Origin: a virus
Reading direction: 5' to 3' (one strand)
Virus record (IMG/VR): IMGVR_UViG_3300015168_000003
Coordinates: 1-27,052 of that record
Length of the DNA: 27,052 nt
Positions 313 to 17,842 of this stretch are shown one piece after another. A model generated the notes under the pieces. It was not told the origin of the DNA. It ran no database searches and saw nothing but the letters and a program-made list of their open reading frames with translations. Each line of letters starts with the position of its first letter. Within the stretch, counting starts at the first letter, position 1. A program made the translations under genes and the position numbers.

Positions 313-810
313 ATGAAAACCCTGATCTCCGTCTTCCTCGCTCTGTTCCTCTCCGTCGCCCTCCGGGCTGGCGTGCCGGTCACTTTTTACGCAAACAGTG
401 CCGCGGCCGGCGCCACTACGGTTGAGACCGCCATCACGCTCACGATGTCGCGCAGTACGGCGGCGACCACAACCGGCGTCTCCTTCGTCATCCCGGCCAA
501 TAAGAAGTATGTGATCAAGTCGATCATGGTCGCAACGATGGGGAACGCAGTGGCGACGGCCCAGAACACGGTCTTCAATTTGCGCGTGAACACGGCGGGC
601 GCGGTGACGACCAGTTCGACGCCCGTCATCTTCTCCACCACCTCGGCCACGCCAGCCACGGCGAGCGCGTGGGACCGGATCTGCTACACCCTCGGTGATT
701 CCTTCACGATTTCGGGCGATGGCACGATCCAGCTCGGGATCACGGCGAAGGCCACTTACACGACCAACGCCCCGACGTGGTTCGTCACGATCATCGCCGA
801 GGAACAGTAA
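313..810 (+). CDS. Signal-peptide protein of unknown function in head module
   Basis: 165 residues. The N-terminus reads as a Sec signal peptide: Lys2, a hydrophobic run from residue 4 to 17 and a possible cleavage after Ala19. The rest is rich in Thr, Ala, Ser and Val with alternating hydrophobic residues, as in a beta-sandwich; there are no catalytic motifs that I recognise. It starts 5 bases after the portal stop and is followed 31 bases later by another small beta-rich gene, so it belongs to the late head operon. By position it could be a capsid decoration or head fibre protein, but a cytoplasmically assembled head protein would not need an export signal. It could instead be an envelope-acting protein. 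Function unknown. Confidence 0.7.
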   Translation: MKTLISVFLALFLSVALRAGVPVTFYANSAAAGATTVETAITLTMSRSTAATTTGVSFVIPANKKYVIKSIMVATMGNAVATAQNTVFNLRVNTAGAVTTSSTPVIFSTTSATPATASAWDRICYTLGDSFTISGDGTIQLGITAKATYTTNAPTWFVTIIAEEQ

Positions 811-841
811 TCTCCCTTCATTCACCTAAATCCCGTCATCC

Positions 842-1177
842 ATGAAAACCGTCTCCCTGACCGCTGCTAACTCCACCAACGCGACGAGTGCCTCCGCCGT
901 GGCTGGTCGTTTGAAGAAAGTCCAACTCCGCAACACGGGCGCCGTCGCCTGTTACTTCAAGATTTACGACAAGGCGAGCGCGCCGACCGTGGGCACCGAT
1001 GTGCCGGTCATGCTGCTCACCGTCCCGGCGAACGCCGAACTCGACATTTCGATCAAGGGTGACGGCCTTCCGTTCGCCCTCGGCCTCGCCTATGCGACGA
1101 CGCTGAACAAGGTCAACTCCGACTCGACGGCCGTGGCGGCCGGCGCGCTGAAGGCCGACCTCGCCTACTACAGCTAA
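842..1177 (+). CDS. Small beta-rich structural protein (possible capsid decoration)
   Basis: 111 residues with no signal peptide despite following a gene that has one. The sequence has Ser/Thr/Ala-rich strands, a central stretch with KVQLRNTG and FKIYDK, and a VPANAELDISIKGDG segment that looks like a beta-sandwich edge. I do not recognise a named family. It lies between the portal and the prohead protease, where decoration or head-fibre proteins are sometimes found, so a virion surface role is an inference from position only. There is no clear Shine-Dalgarno sequence in front of the ATG. Confidence 0.7.
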   Translation: MKTVSLTAANSTNATSASAVAGRLKKVQLRNTGAVACYFKIYDKASAPTVGTDVPVMLLTVPANAELDISIKGDGLPFALGLAYATTLNKVNSDSTAVAAGALKADLAYYS

Positions 1178-1203
1178 CTTTCAACGCGGAGCGCAAGACT
1201 TAC

Positions 1204-2349
1204 ATGCCCATCAAATTCAAAGCAGCAGCTTCAGGCGATCTGGAGATCGAGTTGTACGACGTGATCGGATTCTGGGGCACGACGGCGAAGGACTTCTCCG
1301 CCCGGCTGAAGGCGGCGAAGGGCAAGAACGTGACCTTGCGCATCAACTCGCCGGGCGGGTCCATCACGGACGGCACGGCGATTTACAATCTGCTCAAGCA
1401 GCATAACGGCACGGTGACGGCGCACATCGACGGCATGGCCGCATCCATGGCGGGCGTGATCGCGATGGCGGCCTCGCACATCATCATGCCGGAGAACTCG
1501 CTCATCATGATCCACAACCCGAGCGTCGTGGGTGAAGGTGAGAGTGAGGATCTGCGCAAGATGGCCGACCTCCTCGATAAGATGAAGGAAAACCTGATCT
1601 CGGCGTATGAGGCCAAGAGTGGACAGACTCGCAAGACCATCGGCGAATGGATGGACGAGGAGAGCTGGTTCACCGCGCAGGAGTGCCTCGACCTCGGACT
1701 GTGTGACGAGATGATCGGGATGCAGGAGGCGGCCGCCTGCGCCAGATACAGCGAATATTTTAATTCGAGCAAGCGCTTCGCCGCGATTGCTCGCAAAATT
1801 CCTCCGGTCATCCCGAACGGAGGGCAACAGAACCAACCCAATAACAAGACCATGAAAGTCTATACTGCAGAAGAGGCTCAAGCCCTTGCTGAACGGGTTG
1901 CATCTCTGGAGCGCGAACAAACGTCTCAGGCCTCGGCTCACGCCACGGCCCTGACCAACGCCAAAAACGCAGCCCTCCAAGAGGCAACCACGGCCGTCAC
2001 GGCCAAAGAGAACAAACGGCGCAATGACATCATCGTGCTGCGCAACAAGTACAACAAGGACGGCGACCTGAATGATATCACGGTGACCGCCCTTGCTGGT
2101 GAAACGACCCCGGAAGCCTTCAAGGATCTCGTCCTTGACGCCGTCCAGAGCCGCGCCACCACGACCGCGCAGAAGCCCGGCGCCAAGAACAAGGACAACG
2201 CCAGCAATTCTGATGAAGGCGAAGACGGTGATGCCGTCGCCAGCTTTATTAAGAAATACAAGGCGTGCAAGTCCGACCGGGATCGTCGCATTCTGGTTCG
2301 TGAAAATCGGCTCGTCGCCAAGCAGGCAATGCGTCAGATCGAAGAGTAA
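1204..2349 (+). CDS. ClpP-like (S14) prohead protease with scaffold-like C-terminal region
   Basis: Head maturation protease that trims scaffold and capsid proteins inside the prohead. 381 residues. Residues 1-190 form the ClpP/crotonase-type fold: the INSPGGSI strand-turn at 47-54, the catalytic serine in DGMAAS (Ser81) and the catalytic histidine in IMIHNP (His104); the later SWFTAQECLDLGLCDE segment is also typical. Residues 191-216 are a polar linker rich in Asn and Gln. Residues 217-381 are charged and helical with a coiled-coil start (AEEAQALAERVASLEREQ), which fits a scaffold domain, and no separate scaffold gene lies before the capsid gene. Met217, encoded at 1852, could be an internal start. 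The gene is 40 bases upstream of the capsid gene. Confidence 0.9.
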   Translation: MPIKFKAAASGDLEIELYDVIGFWGTTAKDFSARLKAAKGKNVTLRINSPGGSITDGTAIYNLLKQHNGTVTAHIDGMAASMAGVIAMAASHIIMPENSLIMIHNPSVVGEGESEDLRKMADLLDKMKENLISAYEAKSGQTRKTIGEWMDEESWFTAQECLDLGLCDEMIGMQEAAACARYSEYFNSSKRFAAIARKIPPVIPNGGQQNQPNNKTMKVYTAEEAQALAERVASLEREQTSQASAHATALTNAKNAALQEATTAVTAKENKRRNDIIVLRNKYNKDGDLNDITVTALAGETTPEAFKDLVLDAVQSRATTTAQKPGAKNKDNASNSDEGEDGDAVASFIKKYKACKSDRDRRILVRENRLVAKQAMRQIEE

Positions 2350-2389
2350 TCCAGAGTCGCAACCTTTAACTTACTGGAAACTCTATAAC

Positions 2390-3406
2390 ATGAACGCTCT
2401 CAAAAACTGGGGCTCGGCACTTCTCACCTTTGTGATGTGCGGATTCGCCCTCGTGTTCCAATTCGCAACCGGTCGCCCTGCAGTGATCGTGTGCTACGCC
2501 AATTCGGTGTCTGGTGGTTTGCAGACCGACGTCATTCTGGACTCGGCGATGCAAGCCTTCAAACAGCTCCTCACCCCACTCGGCCTCTTCTCGACCGTCT
2601 TCAAAGACGTCGTCCTGAAGGGCACGAACATCGTGGACGTGCCCTACTACCCGCTCGAAACGGCCGCCTCGAAGGATTTCGATGGTGAGTACGTCTTCGA
2701 TCTGGGCACGGACACGCAGGTCAAGCCCGTCACGATCAACAAGCGCAAATATCAGCCCCTCAGTTACACCAGCTCGGAACTCCGCCGGCTCGGTGGTGCG
2801 TTTGACCCGGAAGTCTTGGGTCAGATCAAGGGTAACAAGCTCGCCGAGGACATCCTCGCCGACATCTGGTCGCTCATCACCAACGCCAACTATGGCGCGG
2901 CAGTGTTCACGGGTCTGGCGGCAGACTTTGACATTGACGACGTGATCGACATTGAGGTTGCGGTCGAGCAGGCCAAGTGGCCGCTGGATCGTCGCGGTCT
3001 GGTCCTCAAGCCTGCCTACACGGGCGGCCTGAAGAAGGACATGAACGCGAACGGTGGTATGGCCACCTACAACCGTGACTCGAACGGCGCTCTCCGCGCC
3101 TTCCCATCCATCGCCTCGTTCAACTTCGCTGCTTCTAACGTGATTCCGGCGAACGGTGAAAACTTGGTGGGCTTCGCGGTTTATCCGTCCGCCTTGCTCG
3201 TCGCGTTCAGCCCAATTGAACCAGCTCCGGAAGTCATGATGGAACTGACCGATTATCGCGCTCAGAGCGATGACGACATCGGCATCACGATTGAGTATCG
3301 CGAGTGGGGTGATCCTGACTCCGACACCGTCAAGCGCACGATTGAGTGTAACTATGGTTACGCCCTCGGCGAAACGGCGGCCCTGAAACGCATCGTCTCC
3401 GCTTAA
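2390..3406 (+). CDS. Major capsid protein with hydrophobic N-terminus
   Basis: Main shell protein, predicted HK97 fold, 338 residues. The frame is open further upstream (an ATG at 2093) but that part overlaps the protease gene and looks like a shadow; the ATG at 2390 follows the protease stop by 40 bases. Recognisable parts are a YYPLE motif and FDLGTD near residue 100, LKKDM in the middle and the C-terminal EYREWGDPDSDTVKRTIECN with GYALGETAALKRIVSA, which resembles one family of phage coat proteins. Residues 8-26 are strongly hydrophobic (WGSALLTFVMCGFALVFQFA) behind Lys5, like a signal peptide or membrane anchor, which is not normal for a coat protein. The protease may remove it during maturation. 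Confidence 0.82.
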   Translation: MNALKNWGSALLTFVMCGFALVFQFATGRPAVIVCYANSVSGGLQTDVILDSAMQAFKQLLTPLGLFSTVFKDVVLKGTNIVDVPYYPLETAASKDFDGEYVFDLGTDTQVKPVTINKRKYQPLSYTSSELRRLGGAFDPEVLGQIKGNKLAEDILADIWSLITNANYGAAVFTGLAADFDIDDVIDIEVAVEQAKWPLDRRGLVLKPAYTGGLKKDMNANGGMATYNRDSNGALRAFPSIASFNFAASNVIPANGENLVGFAVYPSALLVAFSPIEPAPEVMMELTDYRAQSDDDIGITIEYREWGDPDSDTVKRTIECNYGYALGETAALKRIVSA

Positions 3407-3430
3407 ACTGGGCTCTGACCCACAACCAGT

Positions 3431-3811
3431 ATGAACAAAGCAATCACCATCGCCTTTAAGGGTGACGCGAACGAAATTCTCGTCGGTCCTGAGGTGATGT
3501 ACAGCGAGCAACGTCGTAACTTCCGCAAGCTGAAAGCCAGCTTGAATGGTTACGACTCGCTTGAATTGTGGTGCGCGTCGTCTGGCCGGGTGAAGCAGTA
3601 CAAGTTCAAGTCGAAGGTCGCTGCTCCATCCGCCCCGGAGACGGACACCAACACGAAGGCCGAGACCGGCGCTTCTGTTCCTGATCATTCACAGCCCGAA
3701 GGGGCTCTCAACAACAAGCCGAAAGCGACTCCTGCCAAAAAGGCAGTGGCGCCCAAGGCTAACAAAACGGCTAAGGCCAAGGCGACGTTAAAAACCGCCA
3801 CAAATAGCTAA
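3431..3811 (+). CDS. Small protein with lysine/alanine-rich disordered tail
   Basis: 126 residues. Residues 1-65 look folded (AITIAFKGDANEILVGPEVM, then an aromatic segment with LELWCASSGRVKQYKF). From about residue 66 the chain becomes low complexity with Ala, Pro, Lys and Thr, resembling histone H1 or other nucleic-acid-binding tails. It lies directly after the capsid gene and ends 12 bases before the next start. The basic tail could bind packaged DNA or neutralise charge at the head; this is inference. No family is recognised. Confidence 0.7.
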   Translation: MNKAITIAFKGDANEILVGPEVMYSEQRRNFRKLKASLNGYDSLELWCASSGRVKQYKFKSKVAAPSAPETDTNTKAETGASVPDHSQPEGALNNKPKATPAKKAVAPKANKTAKAKATLKTATNS

Positions 3812-3815
3812 GGAG
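3809..3815 (+). promoter_or_regulatory. Strong Shine-Dalgarno site for the 3824 gene
   Basis: TAAGGAG overlaps the stop codon of the preceding gene and ends 8 bases before the ATG at 3824. It is one of the few clear ribosome-binding sites here; most starts in the window have none and rely on overlap with the upstream gene. Confidence 0.7.
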
Positions 3816-3823
3816 AACTCACC

Positions 3824-4039
3824 ATGGCATCATATCGCAAACTCTACGCCAGCCAGACTCAACCTGACGGCATGCAAATCGGTCTCACGGGAGGCAAGAT
3901 CGGCTTCAATGGCGCGACGCCCGTCGTCAAGCCAACGGGCGCCGGTCAGGCCGTCCCAACGGACCTTGCATCCTGTATCGTGTTCTGCACGAAGATCCGG
4001 ACCGACTTGATCGCGCTCGGACTGATTGCTGGCGCGTAA
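3824..4039 (+). CDS. 71-residue GFxGATPV-type structural protein
   Basis: The sequence contains KIGFNGATPVVKPTGAG followed by a hydrophobic C-terminal helix that ends LIALGLIAGA. A GFFGATPV-x-P element followed by a short helix is a recurring module in phage head-fibre and tail-fibre proteins, where it seems to be a trimerising or attachment element. Here it is almost free-standing, with only ~23 residues in front. The start is supported by a strong ribosome-binding site. It lies between capsid and connector genes, so it is most likely a virion surface component. The family assignment is from memory of the motif. Confidence 0.72.
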   Translation: MASYRKLYASQTQPDGMQIGLTGGKIGFNGATPVVKPTGAGQAVPTDLASCIVFCTKIRTDLIALGLIAGA

Positions 4040-4045
4040 CCTATT

Positions 4046-4112
4046 GGAGGAGCATCCGTAATTGTAAGTCCTTGTGGGGCATGAGGTTATGATGTACGCG
4101 GAGCGCTCCTCC
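4046..4112 (+). repeat. Inverted repeat / RNA hairpin in the longest head-module gap
   Basis: GGAGGAGC at 4046-4053 is the exact complement of GCTCCTCC at 4105-4112; further inside, TCCG (4055-4058) pairs with CGGA (4099-4102) and TA with TA. The loop is about 35 bases. It falls in the 123-base gap between the 3824 gene and the connector gene. The left arm also contains GGAGGAG, a ribosome-binding-like sequence that the fold would mask. Confidence 0.5.
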
Positions 4113-4116
4113 ATTT

Positions 4117-4157
4117 GGCGGGGTTCGGGTCAAACCGGGCGCCGCCTGTTTCTTTTT
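4117..4157 (+). terminator. Possible intrinsic terminator after capsid gene cluster
   Basis: GGCGG (4117-4121) can pair with CCGCC (4142-4146), with GGTT/AACC as an inner stem, and the fold is followed at once by TGTTTCTTTTT. The stem is imperfect because GGGCG must bulge out. It would separate the abundant head proteins from the connector and later genes, but it may only be partial (an attenuator), because no promoter is visible after it. Confidence 0.35.
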
Positions 4158-4162
4158 CCACT

Positions 4163-4816
4163 ATGAAACCCGACTCCATGATTCCGGTCTGGCCGGAGGA
4201 CGCGATCACCGAACCCGTGACCCTAACTGAGGTGAAGAAGCAGTGCAAGATGGAGGGTTTCGATGAGGACGACACCTATCTGACTTTGCTCATCGCGGCC
4301 GCTCGCGAGAAGGTCGAGGAATACTGTCATCGCTCGTTCGTTTTGCAGCAGTATCAACTCGGTTACTCCGGGTGGCCCAACTCGACCCGTGCGGCGAACG
4401 GGCGCGGGTTTCTGGGCTTTCTCGGTGTCGCCTACGACCGGACCTTTGAACTCGTCCGCCCGCCCATCGTCTCGGTTGATGCGGTCCAGTACAACCGGTC
4501 CAGCGATAGCGTGTTGACCGCGCTCGACGTGGCGCGCTACAAGGTGGACCTCTCCGTCCTGCGGGGCGCGGTCCGGGTCAACGGCGGCCTGCCCGCCCTC
4601 GATTATGACGTGACGTGTCCGGTGCAGATCCTCGTGACCACGGGACAGTGGGGCACGGACAACGCGAACTTGCCGAGCCGGGTGAAACTCGCCATTTTGC
4701 TCACAGCCGCGACCTTTTACGAGAACCGCGTCAACGTGGTGATTGGCACGATTGCAACGGAGGTGCCGGATGCCGCGAAGGCGTTGCTCGGCTCCCTCAA
4801 AATCCGGAACATGTAA
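4163..4816 (+). CDS. Head-tail connector (HK97 gp6-like adaptor)
   Basis: The adaptor forms a ring below the portal and starts the neck. 217 residues from the ATG at 4163; a TTG at 4115 in the same frame would run through the candidate terminator hairpin and is less likely. The N-terminal helices match the gp6-like family: PVTLTEVKKQCKMEG, then DDTYLTLLIAAAREKVEEYCHRSF. The middle has a beta-rich insertion with RPPIVSVDAVQYN, and the C-terminus has the usual last helix (LPSRVKLAILLTAATFYENR). The stop overlaps the next start in TAATG. Length is a little above that of plain gp6 proteins (100-200), because of the beta region. Confidence 0.85.
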   Translation: MKPDSMIPVWPEDAITEPVTLTEVKKQCKMEGFDEDDTYLTLLIAAAREKVEEYCHRSFVLQQYQLGYSGWPNSTRAANGRGFLGFLGVAYDRTFELVRPPIVSVDAVQYNRSSDSVLTALDVARYKVDLSVLRGAVRVNGGLPALDYDVTCPVQILVTTGQWGTDNANLPSRVKLAILLTAATFYENRVNVVIGTIATEVPDAAKALLGSLKIRNM

Positions 4817-5412
4817 TGCCCTTGCGCGGACAAAATCCCGGAACGCTCGACCGGCGCATCACGCTGCGGTTTCCCGTGATCACGCGGGACGAGATCGGGG
4901 GCGCCATCGAGTCCTTCGCCGACCTGACGAACGTCTGGGCGTCGTGGTCCGCGGAGAAGGGCCGCGAGTGGTTCGAGGGCGACGCCAAGCAGAGTGAAAA
5001 CGTGGCCGCCTTCCGCATCCGGTACCGGGCGGACGTGCAGACCACGTGGCGGCTCCTGTACGCGGGTGCCCTGCATGAGATCGTGGGCAAGCCGGTCGAG
5101 ATCGGCCGGCGCCAGTACCTCGACCTGTTCGTCCGCCTCCTGCCCGATCAGGCGAATCCTTCGCTCTACACGACCGCACAGTCCTTCGTCGTCGATCTGG
5201 TCGAGGGCGAGGAAACGCACGACGTCGAGTTCCCGGTCGCTTTCCTCACTCCGCCCACTGGGCTTTACGTCCAGCTCCTCGTCCCGGAGGACGGCTTCGT
5301 CTTCAATGCTGACCCGGTGCTCCCATCTCTGACCGAGGAAGGCTTCACCGTTCAGCTCGGCGCTGCGGTGCCCGGCCCCGGCTACAAACTCAGCATCCAA
5401 GCTGCGCTATGA
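4816..5412 (+). CDS. Head-closure / head-tail joining protein with extra C-terminal domain
   Basis: 198 residues. Residues 1-110 match the SPP1 gp16 / HK97 gp7-like joining family: LDRRITLRFP at the start, a WASWSAEKGREWFEGD segment and a final beta strand pair ending EIGRRQYLDLFVRL. This family (typically ~110 residues) closes the portal channel. The last ~80 residues are an added beta-sandwich-like domain with DVEFPVAF, a TEEGFTVQLG segment and PGYKLSIQA, a pattern seen in small phage beta domains of lectin-like type. The start codon shares its A with the connector stop (TAATG). The end overlaps the fibre gene by 4 bases. Confidence 0.8.
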   Translation: MPLRGQNPGTLDRRITLRFPVITRDEIGGAIESFADLTNVWASWSAEKGREWFEGDAKQSENVAAFRIRYRADVQTTWRLLYAGALHEIVGKPVEIGRRQYLDLFVRLLPDQANPSLYTTAQSFVVDLVEGEETHDVEFPVAFLTPPTGLYVQLLVPEDGFVFNADPVLPSLTEEGFTVQLGAAVPGPGYKLSIQAAL

Positions 5413-8400
5413 AAAAATTCCTCTTCCTTTATCTCGTGGTCCTGATTGCAGCCTTTGCTTTCTTCGCGACACACAGTCACGGCCAGACGCTCGCGGGCAC
5501 GCTCACCATCCAGAAGTGGACGAAGATGACAGGCATCATCAACGCGGCGTTGACCGCGGATCAAAACAACTACGCCCCGACTGGGATCACGGACGCGGCC
5601 GCGGTCCGGCTCACGGCCGATACCGCCCGCTCGATCACGGGCCTGACGCCGGGTCTGACACCGAATGGCCGCATCATCTACTTGGTCAACGTCGACACGG
5701 CGGACGCCATCACCCTTGTCAGCGAGTCCGCCAGCTCGACGGCCGCGAACCGGTTCGCCCTTGGCGCGGATGTGGTCCTCACGCCCGGCGGGGTCGGCGC
5801 GGTCCTGATCTACGACGACACGTCCCACCGCTGGCGGTCCTATTCGGGCTCCGGCACGGGCTCCGGTGGTGGAGGTAGTGGCGGCACGGTGACCTCGGTG
5901 GCACTGGACCTGCCCACATCGCTCTTTGACGTGACGGGCTCTCCGGTGACCATTTCAGGTACGCTGACGGGTGCTCTGAAGACTCAGACGGCGAATCAGG
6001 TCTGGGCCGGGCCAGTCTCCGGGGCGGCCGCGTCACCTGTCTTCCGGGCGCTCGTGGCGGCCGACGTCCCATCCTTGACCCTCTCGAAGATCTCGGACGC
6101 GGGCACGATGGCGGCCGCGTCGACGACTAATTACTACACCAAGACGGCGACGGACACCCTGCTCGGTAGCTACTTGACCACGGCCACGGCCGCCAGCACC
6201 TATCTGACGATCTCGACCGCGGCCTCGACCTATCAACCCCTGAACACCAAGCTGACCGCCTTCGCGGCACTGGCGAACGCGGCTGGGTGGTTGCACAATG
6301 ACGGCGCGGGCGTCTTCGCCTATACGACACCGACGAAAAGCGACGTGGGACTGGGCAGCGTGGAAAACACGGCGCTTTCGACGTGGGCTGGATCGGCGAA
6401 TCTCACGACCCTCGGCACGATTACGACGGGCGTCTGGAATGGCACGGTCGTCGCGAATTCTTTTCTCGCCACCGCGTTGACAGGCAAGACCTACAATGGC
6501 CTGACGCTGACCTCGGCGACCGTGGGCTTCACCATTGCGGGCGGCACGACGAGCAAGACGCTGACCGTCTCGAACACGGCCGACGTCTCCGGCACAAACA
6601 CGGGCGACCAGACGAGCGTCACTGGAAACGCGGGCACGGCCACCGCCCTGCAGACGGCGAGGAACATCAACGGCGTGGCGTTCGATGGCACGGCGAACAT
6701 CACCGTCACGGCGGCCGCGGGCACGCTGACGGGCACGACGCTCAATTCATCCGTGGTGACTTCCTCCCTCACCTCGCTCGGCACGATCACCACGGGCGTC
6801 TGGAACGGCACAGCCATTGCGAACGCGAACTTGGCGAACAGTGCAGTCACCATCGGGTCGACCTCGGTGTCGCTCGGTGGCGCGGCCGCCTCGATCTCCG
6901 GTCTGAAGTTGGGCTCCCTCACGACGAACGGCTTTGTCAAGACCAGTGCGGGCGATGGTACGCTTTCCGTGGATACAAGCACGTACCTCACGACGAGCAG
7001 CGCGTCCAGCACTTATCAGCCCTTGGACGCGACGTTGACCTCGCTGGCGGCCTACAACACCAACGGCCTGCTCGTGCAGACGGCCGCCGATACCTTCGCC
7101 GGCCGGACGGTCACAGGCACGGCGAGCCGGATCTCGATCACGAACGGCAACGGTGTGTCGGGCAATCCGACCATCGATATCGACTCGGCCTACGTCGGGC
7201 AGAGCACGATCACGACCCTCGGCACGATCACCACGGGCACTTGGTCCGCGACTACCATTGCCGCGAATAAGGGCGGAACGGGTCTGGCTTCCTATACTAT
7301 TGGCGATCTACTTTATGCGTCCTCTTCTTCTGTGTTGTCGGCGCGCGCAGCGGTGGCAACGGGCTCGGTACTGATCAGTCAGGGTACGGGAACGGCTCCG
7401 ATCTGGAGTTCCGCTCCAACTGTCACGACGTTGACCGCGTCTGGTACGATCACGGGAGACAACCTCATCGGGGGCGTTAACGGAACGCACGACACGATTG
7501 TGCTGAATGGCGCGACTGCAGGGACGGGCGCCAGCGTCAATGCTAACAACTCCGCGTCCACCGATTACACTCCGCTCGTCTTGAGAGGAAACGTGGTCAC
7601 GATCCATAGTCGAACTGGTGTCGCCAGCGCGTCGGCTGTTGCCGCGTTCGCCACCGCTGGTGTTACTGTTACGGGTGGGACGTTCGTCTCGGCCGACAGC
7701 TACTTCGGCACGGGAGCGACGGACGGCGTTCATAAGTTGAGCGTGTTTGGTGTCATCCGAAGTCAGGACACCTCGCCCGGTCTCAACCTCTACGACACCT
7801 CGCCCGCGCTGAAGTCGCAATTTTACTGGGATGGGACGAAGACCAAGATTGGTTCCTTCGCAAATGCGAATCTTGCGCTTTTCGTGAATAACACGGTGAT
7901 TGCCACCATTAGCACTTCTGGTTTGACGGTGACAGGGCTGACGACTACTTCGAATGCGACGGTCGGATCAGGTGTTGCGTCTAACAATGCGACGGTGATC
8001 ATCAATGGAGCCGCGACCAGTTCTTTCGGTCCCAATATTTTGTGGGAGAGAAACTCAGTGATCAAATGGCAGATGGGTATTGAGAGCGGGATTATCGGGA
8101 ACAACTCTGACGCCTTCATGTTGTATGATCAGGCGGGTGGGGCGACAGCGTTGAAGTACACGTCAGCGTCCGGTCTTGCCGTCACAGGATCGTTATCTTC
8201 CACTGGAACACACACTTCGACTAGCACTGGTGGTGCGATGTTCACGGCTCAGTCGAGCACGACGAGTCAAGCGTATTTGCGCATCCAGAACACGTCGGGC
8301 AACGTCTTTCTCGGCATCGAGAGTTCAACGGGTGGAGCGATCATTACTGGAAGCACGGCCTATGACACCGTCCTGACTGGCGCGTCCGGGATCGCGTTTT

Positions 8401-9140
8401 CGGGGAACGGTGGCACCGGAATGCAAGCGCGTCTAACCTCGACCGGTCTGTCTGTGACCGGAGCAGTTTCTTGCACGACGGGATTTAGCATTGCTTCGGT
8501 AGCACTGACTTCTGGTAATTACTACATGCAGGTGATCGGCAGCAGTGGCGCGGACCGTACTTTGATCCTAGCCGGAATCGCGAGCGTTTCAAATGGTTTT
8601 GTGGTCGGATACACTCACTCAGGAACGAGCATGTATTATCAGATGAACGGAGGAGGTTTGACGGTTGGCGGTACGATCACGAACACGCAGGCCAATGGTC
8701 TCTATCAGATCGGTGGGACTACTGCTTCCTTTCCCGCGCTCCGCAACGAGGGCAACACCGAGGCCTCGTTCGTCCTCGCGACCCTCGGCGGTTACACCTC
8801 GGTTCGTGCGTCCGCCTTCAACGTATCGTCAGATCGCCGCATCAAGAAGAACATCCGCGATTACACGGGCAGCGGTGCCGTGATTGATGCGTTGCGCCCC
8901 CGGATCTTCGATATCGACACGACGGTGAAGATGTACGCGGACGGCAAGCCGAATCAGATCGGCTTTGTGGCGCAGGAGTTGTACGACGTCTTCCCTCAGG
9001 CCGTGACCAAGGGTGACGACGGCGCGACCATCAAATTCCTCTGGGGCGTTGACACGGCCAAGTTGATGCCGGTCATCGTTTCCGAGCTGCAGTCTTTGCG
9101 CGGCCGCGTGACCGCACTGGAGAAGAACAAGAAACTTTAG
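5409..9140 (+). CDS. Tail fibre/spike with signal peptide and S74 self-cleaving chaperone
   Basis: 1243 residues. Residues 1-25 resemble a Sec signal peptide (Lys2-Lys3, hydrophobic 4-20, possible cleavage after Gly25). A Gly/Ser linker at about 150-158 is followed by long Thr/Ser/Ala-rich fibre sequence with GTITTGVWNGT-type repeats. The C-terminal 103 residues are the S74 endosialidase-type intramolecular chaperone: the SDRRIKKNI motif starts at Ser1141, the expected autocleavage point, and the GFVAQELYDVFP and DTAKLMPV motifs follow, then a coiled coil. Such chaperones trimerise the fibre and are then cut off. GC falls from about 67% near 5900 to 45-48% near 8050-8600 in hand-counted 60-base rows. 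It overlaps the head-closure gene by ATGA. Fibre genes normally lie after the tape measure. Confidence 0.87.
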   Translation: MKKFLFLYLVVLIAAFAFFATHSHGQTLAGTLTIQKWTKMTGIINAALTADQNNYAPTGITDAAAVRLTADTARSITGLTPGLTPNGRIIYLVNVDTADAITLVSESASSTAANRFALGADVVLTPGGVGAVLIYDDTSHRWRSYSGSGTGSGGGGSGGTVTSVALDLPTSLFDVTGSPVTISGTLTGALKTQTANQVWAGPVSGAAASPVFRALVAADVPSLTLSKISDAGTMAAASTTNYYTKTATDTLLGSYLTTATAASTYLTISTAASTYQPLNTKLTAFAALANAAGWLHNDGAGVFAYTTPTKSDVGLGSVENTALSTWAGSANLTTLGTITTGVWNGTVVANSFLATALTGKTYNGLTLTSATVGFTIAGGTTSKTLTVSNTADVSGTNTGDQTSVTGNAGTATALQTARNINGVAFDGTANITVTAAAGTLTGTTLNSSVVTSSLTSLGTITTGVWNGTAIANANLANSAVTIGSTSVSLGGAAASISGLKLGSLTTNGFVKTSAGDGTLSVDTSTYLTTSSASSTYQPLDATLTSLAAYNTNGLLVQTAADTFAGRTVTGTASRISITNGNGVSGNPTIDIDSAYVGQSTITTLGTITTGTWSATTIAANKGGTGLASYTIGDLLYASSSSVLSARAAVATGSVLISQGTGTAPIWSSAPTVTTLTASGTITGDNLIGGVNGTHDTIVLNGATAGTGASVNANNSASTDYTPLVLRGNVVTIHSRTGVASASAVAAFATAGVTVTGGTFVSADSYFGTGATDGVHKLSVFGVIRSQDTSPGLNLYDTSPALKSQFYWDGTKTKIGSFANANLALFVNNTVIATISTSGLTVTGLTTTSNATVGSGVASNNATVIINGAATSSFGPNILWERNSVIKWQMGIESGIIGNNSDAFMLYDQAGGATALKYTSASGLAVTGSLSSTGTHTSTSTGGAMFTAQSSTTSQAYLRIQNTSGNVFLGIESSTGGAIITGSTAYDTVLTGASGIAFSGNGGTGMQARLTSTGLSVTGAVSCTTGFSIASVALTSGNYYMQVIGSSGADRTLILAGIASVSNGFVVGYTHSGTSMYYQMNGGGLTVGGTITNTQANGLYQIGGTTASFPALRNEGNTEASFVLATLGGYTSVRASAFNVSSDRRIKKNIRDYTGSGAVIDALRPRIFDIDTTVKMYADGKPNQIGFVAQELYDVFPQAVTKGDDGATIKFLWGVDTAKLMPVIVSELQSLRGRVTALEKNKKL
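6402..7253 (+). repeat. Three dispersed 15-codon repeats inside the fibre gene
   Basis: Near-identical copies lie at 6402-6446, 6768-6812 and 7209-7253, all in frame, each encoding a version of L-T-x-L-G-T-I-T-T-G-x-W. They share the DNA core CTCGGCACGATCACCACGGG with few changes. This motif is widespread in phage tail-fibre shafts. Copies are 366 and 441 bases apart, so recombination between them could shorten or lengthen the shaft. Confidence 0.8.
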
Positions 9141-9147
9141 CCCTACA

Positions 9148-9612
9148 ATGAAAACACAAAACCTCATCCTCGCAGCCTCGCTGCTTTCGATCAACGCGCT
9201 CTCTGCCTCGGCGGATCAGCTGAAACTTTCGCGCTCGAACGCGTCGGAGCTGTACGTTTCACTCTCGGCCATTGAATCCGGCCTCACCCCGTCGAACTCG
9301 GTCATCGTGGCGGACGACATCAACGCCCTCCGGCCCGCGGTCGAGGCCTTCGACAAGGGCAAGGTCGCGTTTCAAAAGGCGATCCGGGCGCTGGCGAAAT
9401 CGAATCCATCGGACGTGGACGCGAAGGCGCAGGCCCTCGGTGATGATCTCCAGACCAAGGCCGACGAAGAGTTGACATTTGACCTCGGCCTTGTTAGCTT
9501 CACCGATGATGAAGTCACGGCCGCCAAGATCAAACCTGCTGCACTGGCGGTCATCCGGCGGTTCCTCCTCAAGAAAACTCAACCCGTCAAATCCGATGCC
9601 CCCTCGAAATAA
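9148..9612 (+). CDS. Exported alpha-helical protein, unknown
   Basis: 154 residues. It has a clear Sec signal peptide: Lys2, hydrophobic 6-18 and an A-S-A cleavage site after Ala22. The rest is helical and charged, with regular Lys/Asp/Ala spacing (DVDAKAQALGDDLQTKADEEL) that suggests coiled-coil or helical-bundle packing, and ends in a basic tail. No motif or family is recognised. It starts 7 bases after the fibre gene and overlaps the next gene by 17 bases. By location it may be a periplasmic accessory of lysis or of fibre assembly; this is speculation. Confidence 0.68.
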   Translation: MKTQNLILAASLLSINALSASADQLKLSRSNASELYVSLSAIESGLTPSNSVIVADDINALRPAVEAFDKGKVAFQKAIRALAKSNPSDVDAKAQALGDDLQTKADEELTFDLGLVSFTDDEVTAAKIKPAALAVIRRFLLKKTQPVKSDAPSK

Positions 9613-9976
9613 GACCATTCTCGCAGCCTTCCTGCTGCTTTTCGTCCTCGCTTCCTCCGTCTTCGCCGACACCGCGGTCACGCCCGGTGCCTCGGCGACC
9701 CTGAGCGTCACCGCGGACGGCACGGCGCCCTTCACCTACGCGTGGACCAAGGATGGCGGCACGACACTCCTTGGCACGGCCGCAACCCTCGCCATTACCG
9801 GGATGGCACAGAAGGACGTCGGCGTGTACGTGGTGAAGGTCTCGAACTCGGCCGGCAGCACGACGGCGACGATCACACTTTCCCTCAAGGTTTTGCCGCC
9901 CTCGAACGCGAACATCTCGCTCGTCGAGAAGTTGATCGCGTGGATCAAGGCCTTCTGGAACAAGCAACCCACTTAA
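9596..9976 (+). CDS. Exported Ig-like domain protein with amphipathic C-terminal helix
   Basis: 126 residues. A signal peptide occupies residues 1-24 (Arg4, Lys6, hydrophobic 8-18, V-F-A before the cut). Residues 26-98 are an immunoglobulin I-set-like fold without the disulfide: TADGTAPFTYAWTKDGG, then TLAITGMAQKDVGVYVVKV and SNSAGSTTA. The final ~18 residues (LVEKLIAWIKAFWNK within them) form a strongly amphipathic, tryptophan-rich helix that could touch a membrane. The ATG at 9596 is preferred to an upstream start at 9479, which overlaps the previous gene and would place the signal peptide internally. Ig-like domains on phage virions often bind cell-surface sugars, but an exported form is unusual. 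Confidence 0.72.
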   Translation: MPPRNKTILAAFLLLFVLASSVFADTAVTPGASATLSVTADGTAPFTYAWTKDGGTTLLGTAATLAITGMAQKDVGVYVVKVSNSAGSTTATITLSLKVLPPSNANISLVEKLIAWIKAFWNKQPT

Positions 9977-9980
9977 TCCC

Positions 9981-10223
9981 ATGAGCGAACTGCACGACTT
10001 TTTCCAGATCCTCAACCAGCCCGACATCTCGGCCACGGTCAAGTGGCTGTTCATCTTCCGGCTCTTGGCTGAGGCCTACAGTGCACTTCGCTCCGGTGGC
10101 GGCATCCTCGGCATCTATCGCGGCGTGGTTTATGGTGAGAACATGCCGAAGGTCGTGACCCGTGATTACGCCAAGGAACTTAAGCTCTCGCCCGAAAAAC
10201 CCGAAACCCACAAGGAAACATGA
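9981..10223 (+). CDS. Small protein with one hydrophobic segment
   Basis: 80 residues. A hydrophobic stretch at 18-30 (ATVKWLFIFRLLAEAY region) is followed by a glycine-rich turn (RSGGGILGIYRGVVYG) and a charged, lysine-rich tail. It might be a small membrane or holin-like protein, but the hydrophobic segment is short and interrupted by Arg27, so this is weak. It starts 4 bases after the Ig-like gene and its end overlaps the lipoprotein gene by ATGA, so they are probably translated together. Confidence 0.65.
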   Translation: MSELHDFFQILNQPDISATVKWLFIFRLLAEAYSALRSGGGILGIYRGVVYGENMPKVVTRDYAKELKLSPEKPETHKET

Positions 10224-10651
10224 AACCTCGTCTCAGCATCAGTGTCCTGTTCGCGTCGCTCTTTTTGAGTGTCGCTCTGTTCTCGCCCGGCTGCAACAGC
10301 AACGTCAAACTCGACCCGGCGGGTGAGTACAAGGGCGACACGTTCCTGTATCAGACCGACATCGCCATCACTTCCAGTTACGCTGTGCTCGACACGTTCG
10401 TGACGTGGGAGTATACGAACCGGCCGCTCCTGCTCAAGTCACCCGGCGTGACCAAGTTCGCCGATTCGATCCGCCTCAACGCCAAGCACTGGTTCGATAG
10501 CGCGCACGCGCTCCGCACCACCTATGCCGCCCAACCCACCCCGGAGAACAAGGTCAACTTGCAGAAGGCCTTGGCTCTCATCCAGACCGCGCTAACGCAG
10601 GCTGCGACCTACATGGCCGTGCCCGCCACCACCGCAACTTCAACCGAGTAA
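10220..10651 (+). CDS. Probable phage-encoded lipoprotein
   Basis: 143 residues. The N-terminus (Lys2, Arg4, hydrophobic 5-21) ends in S-P-G-C with Cys25, an atypical but acceptable lipobox, followed by Asn rather than Asp. The mature part is helical with no known domain. A lipoprotein of this size placed next to small membrane-like proteins could be an outer-membrane spanin component or a superinfection-exclusion lipoprotein; neither is shown by sequence similarity. Start overlaps the previous gene by 4 bases. Confidence 0.68.
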   Translation: MKPRLSISVLFASLFLSVALFSPGCNSNVKLDPAGEYKGDTFLYQTDIAITSSYAVLDTFVTWEYTNRPLLLKSPGVTKFADSIRLNAKHWFDSAHALRTTYAAQPTPENKVNLQKALALIQTALTQAATYMAVPATTATSTE

Positions 10652-16213: not shown

Positions 16214-16891
16214 ATGCCCATCCTGCCTCGCCCCGTCGTCCCGAATCAACCCGTGCGGGCCGATGACTACAACAAGCTCCTCGCCTTCGTCCAGTCACTC
16301 GTCGTCCGACAGGGCCTCGGCATCCGCCTGACAAGTAGCACGACGGGAGTGATCGTGAGCCTGCAGTCCACCCCGGAGGCCGGCGCGGGTGGTCCGCCCG
16401 GCAAGATCATTCACCCTTTTCAGCTGACAGACGCTAGCGATGGGACTGGAGCGAAGGTCAATATCCGCTTCGGCCTGCTCAACAACCTGACGCCGACCCT
16501 TGATGATGGTACGACGGAGCTGGATACGTTGACTGAGATCGCTCTCACTCCGCCCGCGACGAGCGGAACTTGGATCATCTTCATGGCTGTGGCGATTGTG
16601 GAGGACGACTCCGTCCTCGTGCCGGACATCGACTACGTCTACATCGTCGCGCAGAAGGATTGGACGGAGGCCGGCGACGGTGGCGACCCGGCCGTCCTCG
16701 GATACCAGATTATCGGCGAGGTTGACGTCGTGGCCGGCGATGGTGACACGGTCCCAGATATGGTGACCGACATCCGGCAAAATGTGACGCACGGACTCAA
16801 GCATACGCTGTGCGGTCGCGTGGTCGCGGATGCGGAGGCCGATCCTCCTATCGCGTTTTCGCCGGGCCTGCCTCAATTCTGGGGAGTCTGA
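16214..16891 (+). CDS. Tail-tip protein candidate, beta-rich
   Basis: 225 residues. Starts with a short helix (RADDYNKLLAFVQSLVV), then the proline/glycine-rich GGPPGKI and strands typical of virion beta proteins (GTWIIFMAVAIVED, VYIVAQKDW). The arrangement of an N-terminal anchor helix plus beta body is usual for baseplate-attached proteins. No named family recognised. Part of a run of closely spaced genes after the tape measure. Confidence 0.68.
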   Translation: MPILPRPVVPNQPVRADDYNKLLAFVQSLVVRQGLGIRLTSSTTGVIVSLQSTPEAGAGGPPGKIIHPFQLTDASDGTGAKVNIRFGLLNNLTPTLDDGTTELDTLTEIALTPPATSGTWIIFMAVAIVEDDSVLVPDIDYVYIVAQKDWTEAGDGGDPAVLGYQIIGEVDVVAGDGDTVPDMVTDIRQNVTHGLKHTLCGRVVADAEADPPIAFSPGLPQFWGV

Positions 16892-16894
16892 TCT

Positions 16895-17842
16895 ATGGCG
16901 CGCGTCTGGCCACCTCAGGGCGATAACTCGCCGAGTTTTGCCTTCAAGGCCGTCTGTTGCTGCGTAGTCCAAGGCCCGGCGCTGGACGTATTCGAGACCC
17001 GATGGACCAGCCAGAACAATTCGGGCGTGTGCATGTGCGGATGCGCGTGGGGCGGCAAATGGTGGAAGGTCCGCACATGGTCCGGCACGTTACACGCAGA
17101 ATATTTCGAATCTTGCGATAGTGGCGCTGCATCGACCGGATCGAGTGATGAGGAATTCAGTGGGTCGATGACGGTCGATCCAACGACCGGATGCTTTCCG
17201 GGCTCTTGCTCGTTCTTGGATCCCTGCACGACCAGCACTCTGTCACAGGGCGGGAGCGATGTGGGCGTCAGTTGTAACTCGATGACCCCGAACACTCCGG
17301 CCGACGTGTATGAGGAGACGGACACGACTGCGCATTACTCGGGGAGCGGAGACTGTCATGTGATCGGTGATGCGGGCGCCGGAGTGGTCGTGACTGGTGA
17401 CGCAACTGATAGCTACAGCGATGAGGACACAGCCGACGACGCCATCGCCCGCATGCTGGCGGCCGCTGGATCGAGTGAAGAGGACGGCTCGGACAACTGG
17501 GATGTATGGACTCCGGTCGAAGGTTACTCGTTTTACGCGACGCCGGCCCCGGCCGATATCAATGGTGGTAGTTGCTTTCCTTATCAGCACGGCGTCTGGC
17601 GGCTCCGGCGCAATCACCTCCTGCCTAGTACCGAGTACACGGTCGAAGTCGAGATCTGGCGGGCGACGTGGGACGGCGTGACGACGCCCGACGATAGCGA
17701 CTACAGCCTGTTCGGGGTGTCGTCCGTGAACGCGACGACGGACGCAACTGGTCTGCTCAAAACGGTCTCGGCCGTGATCCCTAATGCGGTCGGCACGATT
17801 TCGCGAACCAAGATGTCAACCCTCACCTGCGTCCCAACATGA
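16895..17842 (+). CDS. Cysteine-rich tail protein
   Basis: 315 residues with 14 cysteines, including CCC at 21-23, CMCGC at 46-50 and three in TGCFPGSCSFLDPC. The N-terminal third is rich in Trp as well (GGKWWKVRTW), the middle is acidic and serine-rich, and the C-terminal third is beta-rich (EYTVEVEIWRATW). Cytoplasmic phage proteins seldom hold so many cysteines; they could bind a metal (zinc or iron-sulphur) or form disulfides after virion release. Position at the end of the tail genes suggests a tip or receptor-binding protein. There is no signal peptide. Overlaps the next gene by ATGA. Confidence 0.7.
   Translation: MARVWPPQGDNSPSFAFKAVCCCVVQGPALDVFETRWTSQNNSGVCMCGCAWGGKWWKVRTWSGTLHAEYFESCDSGAASTGSSDEEFSGSMTVDPTTGCFPGSCSFLDPCTTSTLSQGGSDVGVSCNSMTPNTPADVYEETDTTAHYSGSGDCHVIGDAGAGVVVTGDATDSYSDEDTADDAIARMLAAAGSSEEDGSDNWDVWTPVEGYSFYATPAPADINGGSCFPYQHGVWRLRRNHLLPSTEYTVEVEIWRATWDGVTTPDDSDYSLFGVSSVNATTDATGLLKTVSAVIPNAVGTISRTKMSTLTCVPT

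Follow-up and report, generated by a model that had tools for sequence, protein, structure and literature searches.

Putative export signals on an S74-tipped fibre-like protein and its neighbours in the structural operon of a tailed phage

We studied the N-termini of the late proteins encoded in a 27,052-base stretch of viral DNA (IMG/VR record IMGVR_UViG_3300015168_000003, positions 1 to 27,052; here, the window). It is an incomplete contig of a tailed phage, and its plus strand carries genes for a portal, a ClpP-type protease, a capsid protein, a connector, a tail terminator, a major tail protein and a tape-measure protein. Six of its genes, starting at positions 313, 2390, 5409, 9148, 9596 and 10220 (Table 1), encode proteins in which a few basic residues are followed by a hydrophobic run, as described in an original prediction made from the sequence. 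The prevailing view is that tailed phages put their particles together in the cytoplasm. The capsid protein of the window is 55% identical to a protein in a contig of an Opitutales metagenome-assembled genome (MAG), 37% identical to one in an Opitutia MAG, and 27 to 30% identical to that of the isolated phage P8625, which infects a Puniceicoccales strain (30% with coding sequence [CDS] 11). In addition, members of this capsid family turned up by profile search in 17 of 273 genomes of the presumed host order. Given where these relatives occur, the host of the phage probably belongs to the Opitutales.

Table 1. Features of the window discussed in the text (a slash marks the predicted cleavage point)
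Feature	Coordinates	Strand	Evidence
Jelly-roll accessory protein, 165 amino acids; signal 313-369, likely cleavage ALRA/GV after residue 19	313..810	+	Scorer, AlphaFold2, Foldseek, homologues
ClpP-type head maturation protease, without signal	1204..2349	+	PF00574, phrog_94
Hydrophobic N-terminal extension of major capsid protein, 36 codons, unproven	2390..2497	+	Starts of relatives, chance rate, AlphaFold2
Mature part of HK97-fold major capsid protein	2498..3406	+	phrog_283, Foldseek, homology
S74-tipped fibre-like protein, 1243 amino acids; signal 5409-5483 (residues 1-25, SHG/Q), fibre module from ca. residue 43	5409..9140	+	PF13884, phrog_5668, scorer
Small protein, candidate exported fibre partner; signal 9148-9213 (SASA/DQ)	9148..9612	+	Scorer, homologue, position
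Single immunoglobulin (Ig)-like domain protein; signal 9596-9667 (SVFA/DT)	9596..9976	+	PF07679, phrog_2973, scorer
Lipoprotein-like protein; signal 10220-10291, Cys25, noncanonical box F-S-P-G/C	10220..10651	+	Sequence, scorer type II

Signal peptides were evaluated with a home-made scorer, which was checked on four known Escherichia coli signal peptides. It requires three elements: an n-region of net positive charge, a core of ten hydrophobic residues without charge, and a site of the small-x-small type. Among the 26 late plus-strand genes, it picked the six listed above, while no signal was detected at 842, 1204, 3431, 3824, 4163, 4816 or the remaining late genes, so the contrast originally drawn with the intervening genes is upheld. 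Since the relaxed scorer also picked tape-measure and terminase genes, which are obvious false positives, the statistics were calculated with a strict setting (hydrophobicity of ≥2.4, core starting by residue 10), which kept 313, 5409, 9148, 9596 and 10220 and lost the capsid gene at 2390. Five of the six proposed export-type N-termini were thus retained. Applied to 174 other IMG/VR phage loci, the strict setting selected 48 of 2,628 genes (1.8%), giving a probability of ca. 1e-4 of finding five or more among 26. The repetition of export-type signals in one structural operon is real and unexpected. Positive n-regions, uncharged hydrophobic cores and small residues at positions -3 and -1, as expected for signal peptidase I, were found at 313, 5409, 9148 and 9596; the cleanest sites were the A-x-A-type ones of 9148 and 9596, already singled out in the prediction and the best of those scored.

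The starts of the five genes are fixed by tight junctions. The ATGs of 5409 and 10220 overlap the previous stop by 4 nucleotides and that of 9596 by 17 nucleotides, while 313 and 9148 follow it after 5 and 7 nucleotides, respectively; most signal-bearing genes found in other phages are likewise separated from the preceding stop by no more than a few bases. A visible Shine-Dalgarno sequence is absent before most late genes between positions 313 and 16200, and for that reason starts could not be decided on this basis. Prediction noise or wrong start codons could in principle generate such a pattern, and the capsid gene gives this explanation some ground (see below). However, the junction-fixed starts and the significant excess of the other five, together with the signals retained, although diverged in sequence, by homologues of three of them, make it highly improbable.

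The protein encoded at 5409 is an S74 fibre-type protein, as had been proposed, with a C-terminal Peptidase_S74 domain (PF13884) at residues 1141 to 1200 (41.7 bits, cutoff of 22) and a match to phrog_5668 (tail fibre). The gene overlapped by its ATG is the head-closure gene at 4816. The N-terminal module of the 5409 protein is common to many phage fibres, and neither Pfam nor PHROGs found a virion-attachment domain at the N-terminus, which consists of the signal peptide and this generic module. Within the 80 fibre-module loci scanned, 75 had no signal peptide, and two further scorer matches were doubtful or distant. A signal peptide stands before the module in four cases, namely the window and loci L075 (gene at 16610), L117 and L128, while in one homologue the N-terminus resembles the T7-type fibre attachment region. 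Other signal-bearing fibre-like genes were found in the Opitutales prophages L217, L218 and L182 and in phage L005, where some of the signal peptides are joined to ordinary fibre-like motifs, e.g., WTDIKSTPTTAAGYGI or INIGTSPNDGTGDTLRSAFSKVNSNF. Compared with the phrog_5668-type fibres, which are assembled in the cytoplasm and in which S74 is an intramolecular chaperone, the window protein shares modules, the C-terminal S74 domain and the position in the structural operon but differs in its signal peptide and in having no recognized tail-attachment domain.

The gene at 9148 lies directly 3' of the fibre gene, where a tail-fibre assembly chaperone would also be expected. Its product matches no family, and its sole detectable homologue (48 to 49% identical; L183, 20948-21394) has a signal peptide of its own and is encoded between a signal-bearing fibre, on its 5' side, and a tape-measure-like gene that follows immediately. 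This other phage (L075/L183) thus has signals on its counterparts of three window proteins (jelly-roll, fibre and 9148). A candidate Ig-like homologue following the 9148 homologue in L294 was discarded, as it proved to be the beginning of a gene of the tape-measure type. The same position is occupied elsewhere by phrog_6034, which may, from its location 3' of tail fibres, be a fibre assembly protein. It carries a signal where the adjacent fibre has one (L217, 5366-5854; L303, 11406-11939) and none where the fibre has none (L111, L168, L304, L305, L306 and L307), a concordance of eight out of eight cases (two both, six neither; p = 0.036). Such agreement is expected if both proteins have to meet outside the cytoplasm, and it is not expected under noise or if the N-termini are prohead tags.

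The AlphaFold2 (AF2) model of the 313 protein (mean predicted local distance difference test [pLDDT] of 89.6) has a helix at residues 2 to 17, corresponding to the signal, followed by a beta domain that starts at residue 21 and is complete. Foldseek related this domain to jelly-roll and TNF-like trimer folds, the best PDB match being a cyanophage A4 portal-tail complex (9k09_A, E value of 2e-4), and to the BFVD entry A0A6J5PG91 with 58% identity. Searches found ca. 25 viral relatives, and no convincing match in any of 388 Verrucomicrobiota genomes. A signal precedes the jelly-roll domain in the window, L073, L075, L081 and L088, while ca. 20 other relatives have a different N-terminal region, mostly another module, of which MADNTTLNVGTGGDSIATDDIGGV is an example, or other repeats. 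Part of the small protein encoded at 842-1177 recurs with 52% identity in L090 (9561-9737), a short distance upstream of a jelly-roll gene of the 313 type.

Two further signal-bearing genes follow. The 9596 protein matched PF07679 (I-set, E value of 4e-10) and the Hoc-like decoration family phrog_2973 (E value of 1e-10). It shares one Ig domain with the Hoc-like proteins of phages and differs from them in the signal peptide before this domain and in having no recognized capsid-binding domain. The product of 10220 had been described as carrying a lipobox-like cysteine. Residue 25 is indeed a cysteine, and the scorer classified the signal as type II, but the box is noncanonical, with a proline at position -2 that the classical lipobox pattern does not allow.

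The sixth gene, at 2390, encodes the major capsid protein, in line with its original identification. It has an HK97 fold in the AF2 model, matched HK97-type capsids by Foldseek (E value of 3e-13) and phrog_283, and is adjacent to the ClpP-type protease gene. Single-sequence searches of the viral and genome collections with this protein returned nothing, and alignments were needed to find its relatives (the alignment used for AF2 was made without one row from another collection). All the complete ones, ca. 70 phage loci plus more than 15 prophage regions (ca. 90), begin at or near window residues 36 to 37, usually with M-A-N, M-S-N or M-P-N, and are up to 55% identical to it. The window protein is the only one with 36 extra codons, and the conserved Met of the relatives is replaced there by Tyr36. 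The extension has no clean cleavage site and was not placed in the AF2 model (residues 1 to 40, pLDDT of ca. 45). Under a Markov null of the same composition, 4.4% of random segments are open and equally signal-like, alternative GTG starts exist at 2483 and 2489, and codon use does not decide whether the segment is translated, all of which favours noise for this particular gene. We therefore keep the capsid extension outside the export explanation, as it may be a chance or unused segment.

Alternatively, the extension could be a membrane anchor, perhaps present in only a fraction of the copies, by which heads begin their assembly at the inner membrane. Head assembly starting at this membrane is a T4-like idea. 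The loss of the conserved Met would fit such a function, as would the HK97-type capsids of L075 (11196-12689) and L088 (1928-3406), which are unrelated to that of the window and 56% identical to each other, and which have hydrophobic signal- or anchor-like N-termini before YFENFxxSxGRHLA, with starts 7 nucleotides after the upstream gene. This second capsid family gave only weak partial matches in the 388 Verrucomicrobiota genomes. Nevertheless, the statistics are weak, the relatives of the window capsid are all devoid of the extension and the structural model does not place it, so we consider an anchor doubtful. The proposal that the particle is built in part across the inner membrane is compatible with the observations on the fibre and accessory proteins, whereas the evidence from the capsid is weak.

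The five remaining N-termini, on fibre-like accessory proteins, are probably genuine Sec signal peptides, judging from their sequences. The S74 fibre, the jelly-roll and Ig-like proteins, the small fibre-adjacent protein and the lipoprotein-like protein would pass the inner membrane via Sec, fold outside the cytoplasm and have their tag removed by signal peptidase, thus reaching the periplasm or the cell surface, where they could have one of two fates, docking on particles as these are set free by lysis or a role at the infected cell's own surface. We favour Sec export because of the statistical excess, the tight starts, the retention of signals in homologues, the swap of N-terminal modules and the concordance between fibres and their partners.

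The same N-termini had also been proposed to serve as tags for assembly or membrane docking that the prohead protease removes. The hydrophobic N-termini on capsids of two unrelated families (that of the window and that of L075/L088) fit this idea. However, the tags are found on tail-side fibres and their partners, far from the prohead, and several have clean A-x-A or A-x-A/Q sites of the signal peptidase type. Furthermore, the proteases differ between phages (ClpP type in the window and another one in L075, matching head-protein/protease families), the extension of the capsid itself is absent from its ca. 90 relatives, and homologues without the signal have a different type of module at the N-terminus in its place. 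We consequently regard this proposal as unsupported and very unlikely. The absence of the segment from homologues, which had been put forward as grounds for refutation, gave different answers depending on the protein: it holds for the capsid, the picture is mixed for 313 and 5409, and the single homologue of 9148 keeps its signal.

A different fate after the same export step has to be taken seriously as a possibility. The exported proteins might not be part of the virion, being instead secreted or surface-displayed adhesins, receptor decoys or superinfection-exclusion factors that share fibre modules. The signal sits where homologues have another N-terminal module, including the T7-type attachment-like region mentioned above, and the gene that follows the signal-bearing jelly-roll gene in L081 weakly matches the Cor superinfection exclusion protein (E value of 0.002). 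A third argument comes from the many signal-bearing S74 proteins in Opitutales genomes, where 29 of 39 S74 matches have a signal and 6 of the other 10 are cut at a contig end. On the other hand, the phage genes belong to head and tail operons, in which their starts are coupled to the preceding genes, and in several phages the signal-bearing protein is the sole fibre-like gene in the stretch covered.

Opitutales genomes often encode S74 proteins (examples are L255, L259, L264 and L272); most of these proteins have a signal, and in many a YQG-type domain comes next. They apparently constitute, from sequence, a family of secreted fibre-like cellular proteins, and given their number, S74 is evidently compatible with export in this group. 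The window fibre has in common with these "tail fiber domain" proteins the signal peptide and the C-terminal S74, but most of the cellular ones start with the YQG-type domain, while that of the window contains a module of phage fibres and is encoded in a phage head and tail operon. We also considered that the 5409 signal is a relic captured from host S74 genes, which is unlikely given the different start domain of the latter.

Several points weigh against Sec export as a phage trait. The scorer is home-made, and the concordance test comprises eight cases, only two of them positive, with a partner, phrog_6034, that has no known function. Capsid similarity is the single line of evidence for the Opitutales host. 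The product of 10220, and possibly that of 9596, could be ordinary envelope or lysis proteins, which would account for part of the excess. Finally, P8625 has a capsid, a ClpP-type protease and a tape-measure protein related to those of the window, but its capsid has no extension and, according to its authors, none of its 52 proteins has a signal peptide (PMC4642752). The trait is therefore not general in the lineage.

Elsewhere in the window, positions 16895 to 17842, in the tail-tip region, encode a predicted 315-amino-acid protein with a cysteine-rich start (KAVCCCVVQ...GVCMCGCAWGG).

Searches of the open-access literature gave no report of tailed-phage fibres with signal peptides. In one study, the fact that hypervariable proteins of phages lack the signal peptides of their bacterial counterparts was taken as support for a phage origin (PMC6199706). 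Carrying the Sec reading further, we tentatively propose, as a rather unlikely scenario, that some Opitutales phages assemble their receptor-binding fibres outside the cytoplasm, with fibre, helper and decoration proteins secreted by Sec to the periplasm and docking only at lysis, and with the hydrophobic capsid N-terminus perhaps tethering heads to the membrane. For annotation, the practical warning is that signal-bearing fibre genes should not be called bacterial on this account. The recurrence, in unrelated phages too, of kept signals on fibres and on the gene next to them suggests that the parts used for host recognition leave the cytoplasm in some phages. If true, this would mean that virions are built in two compartments or that the infected cell's surface is where fibres encoded by the phage act.

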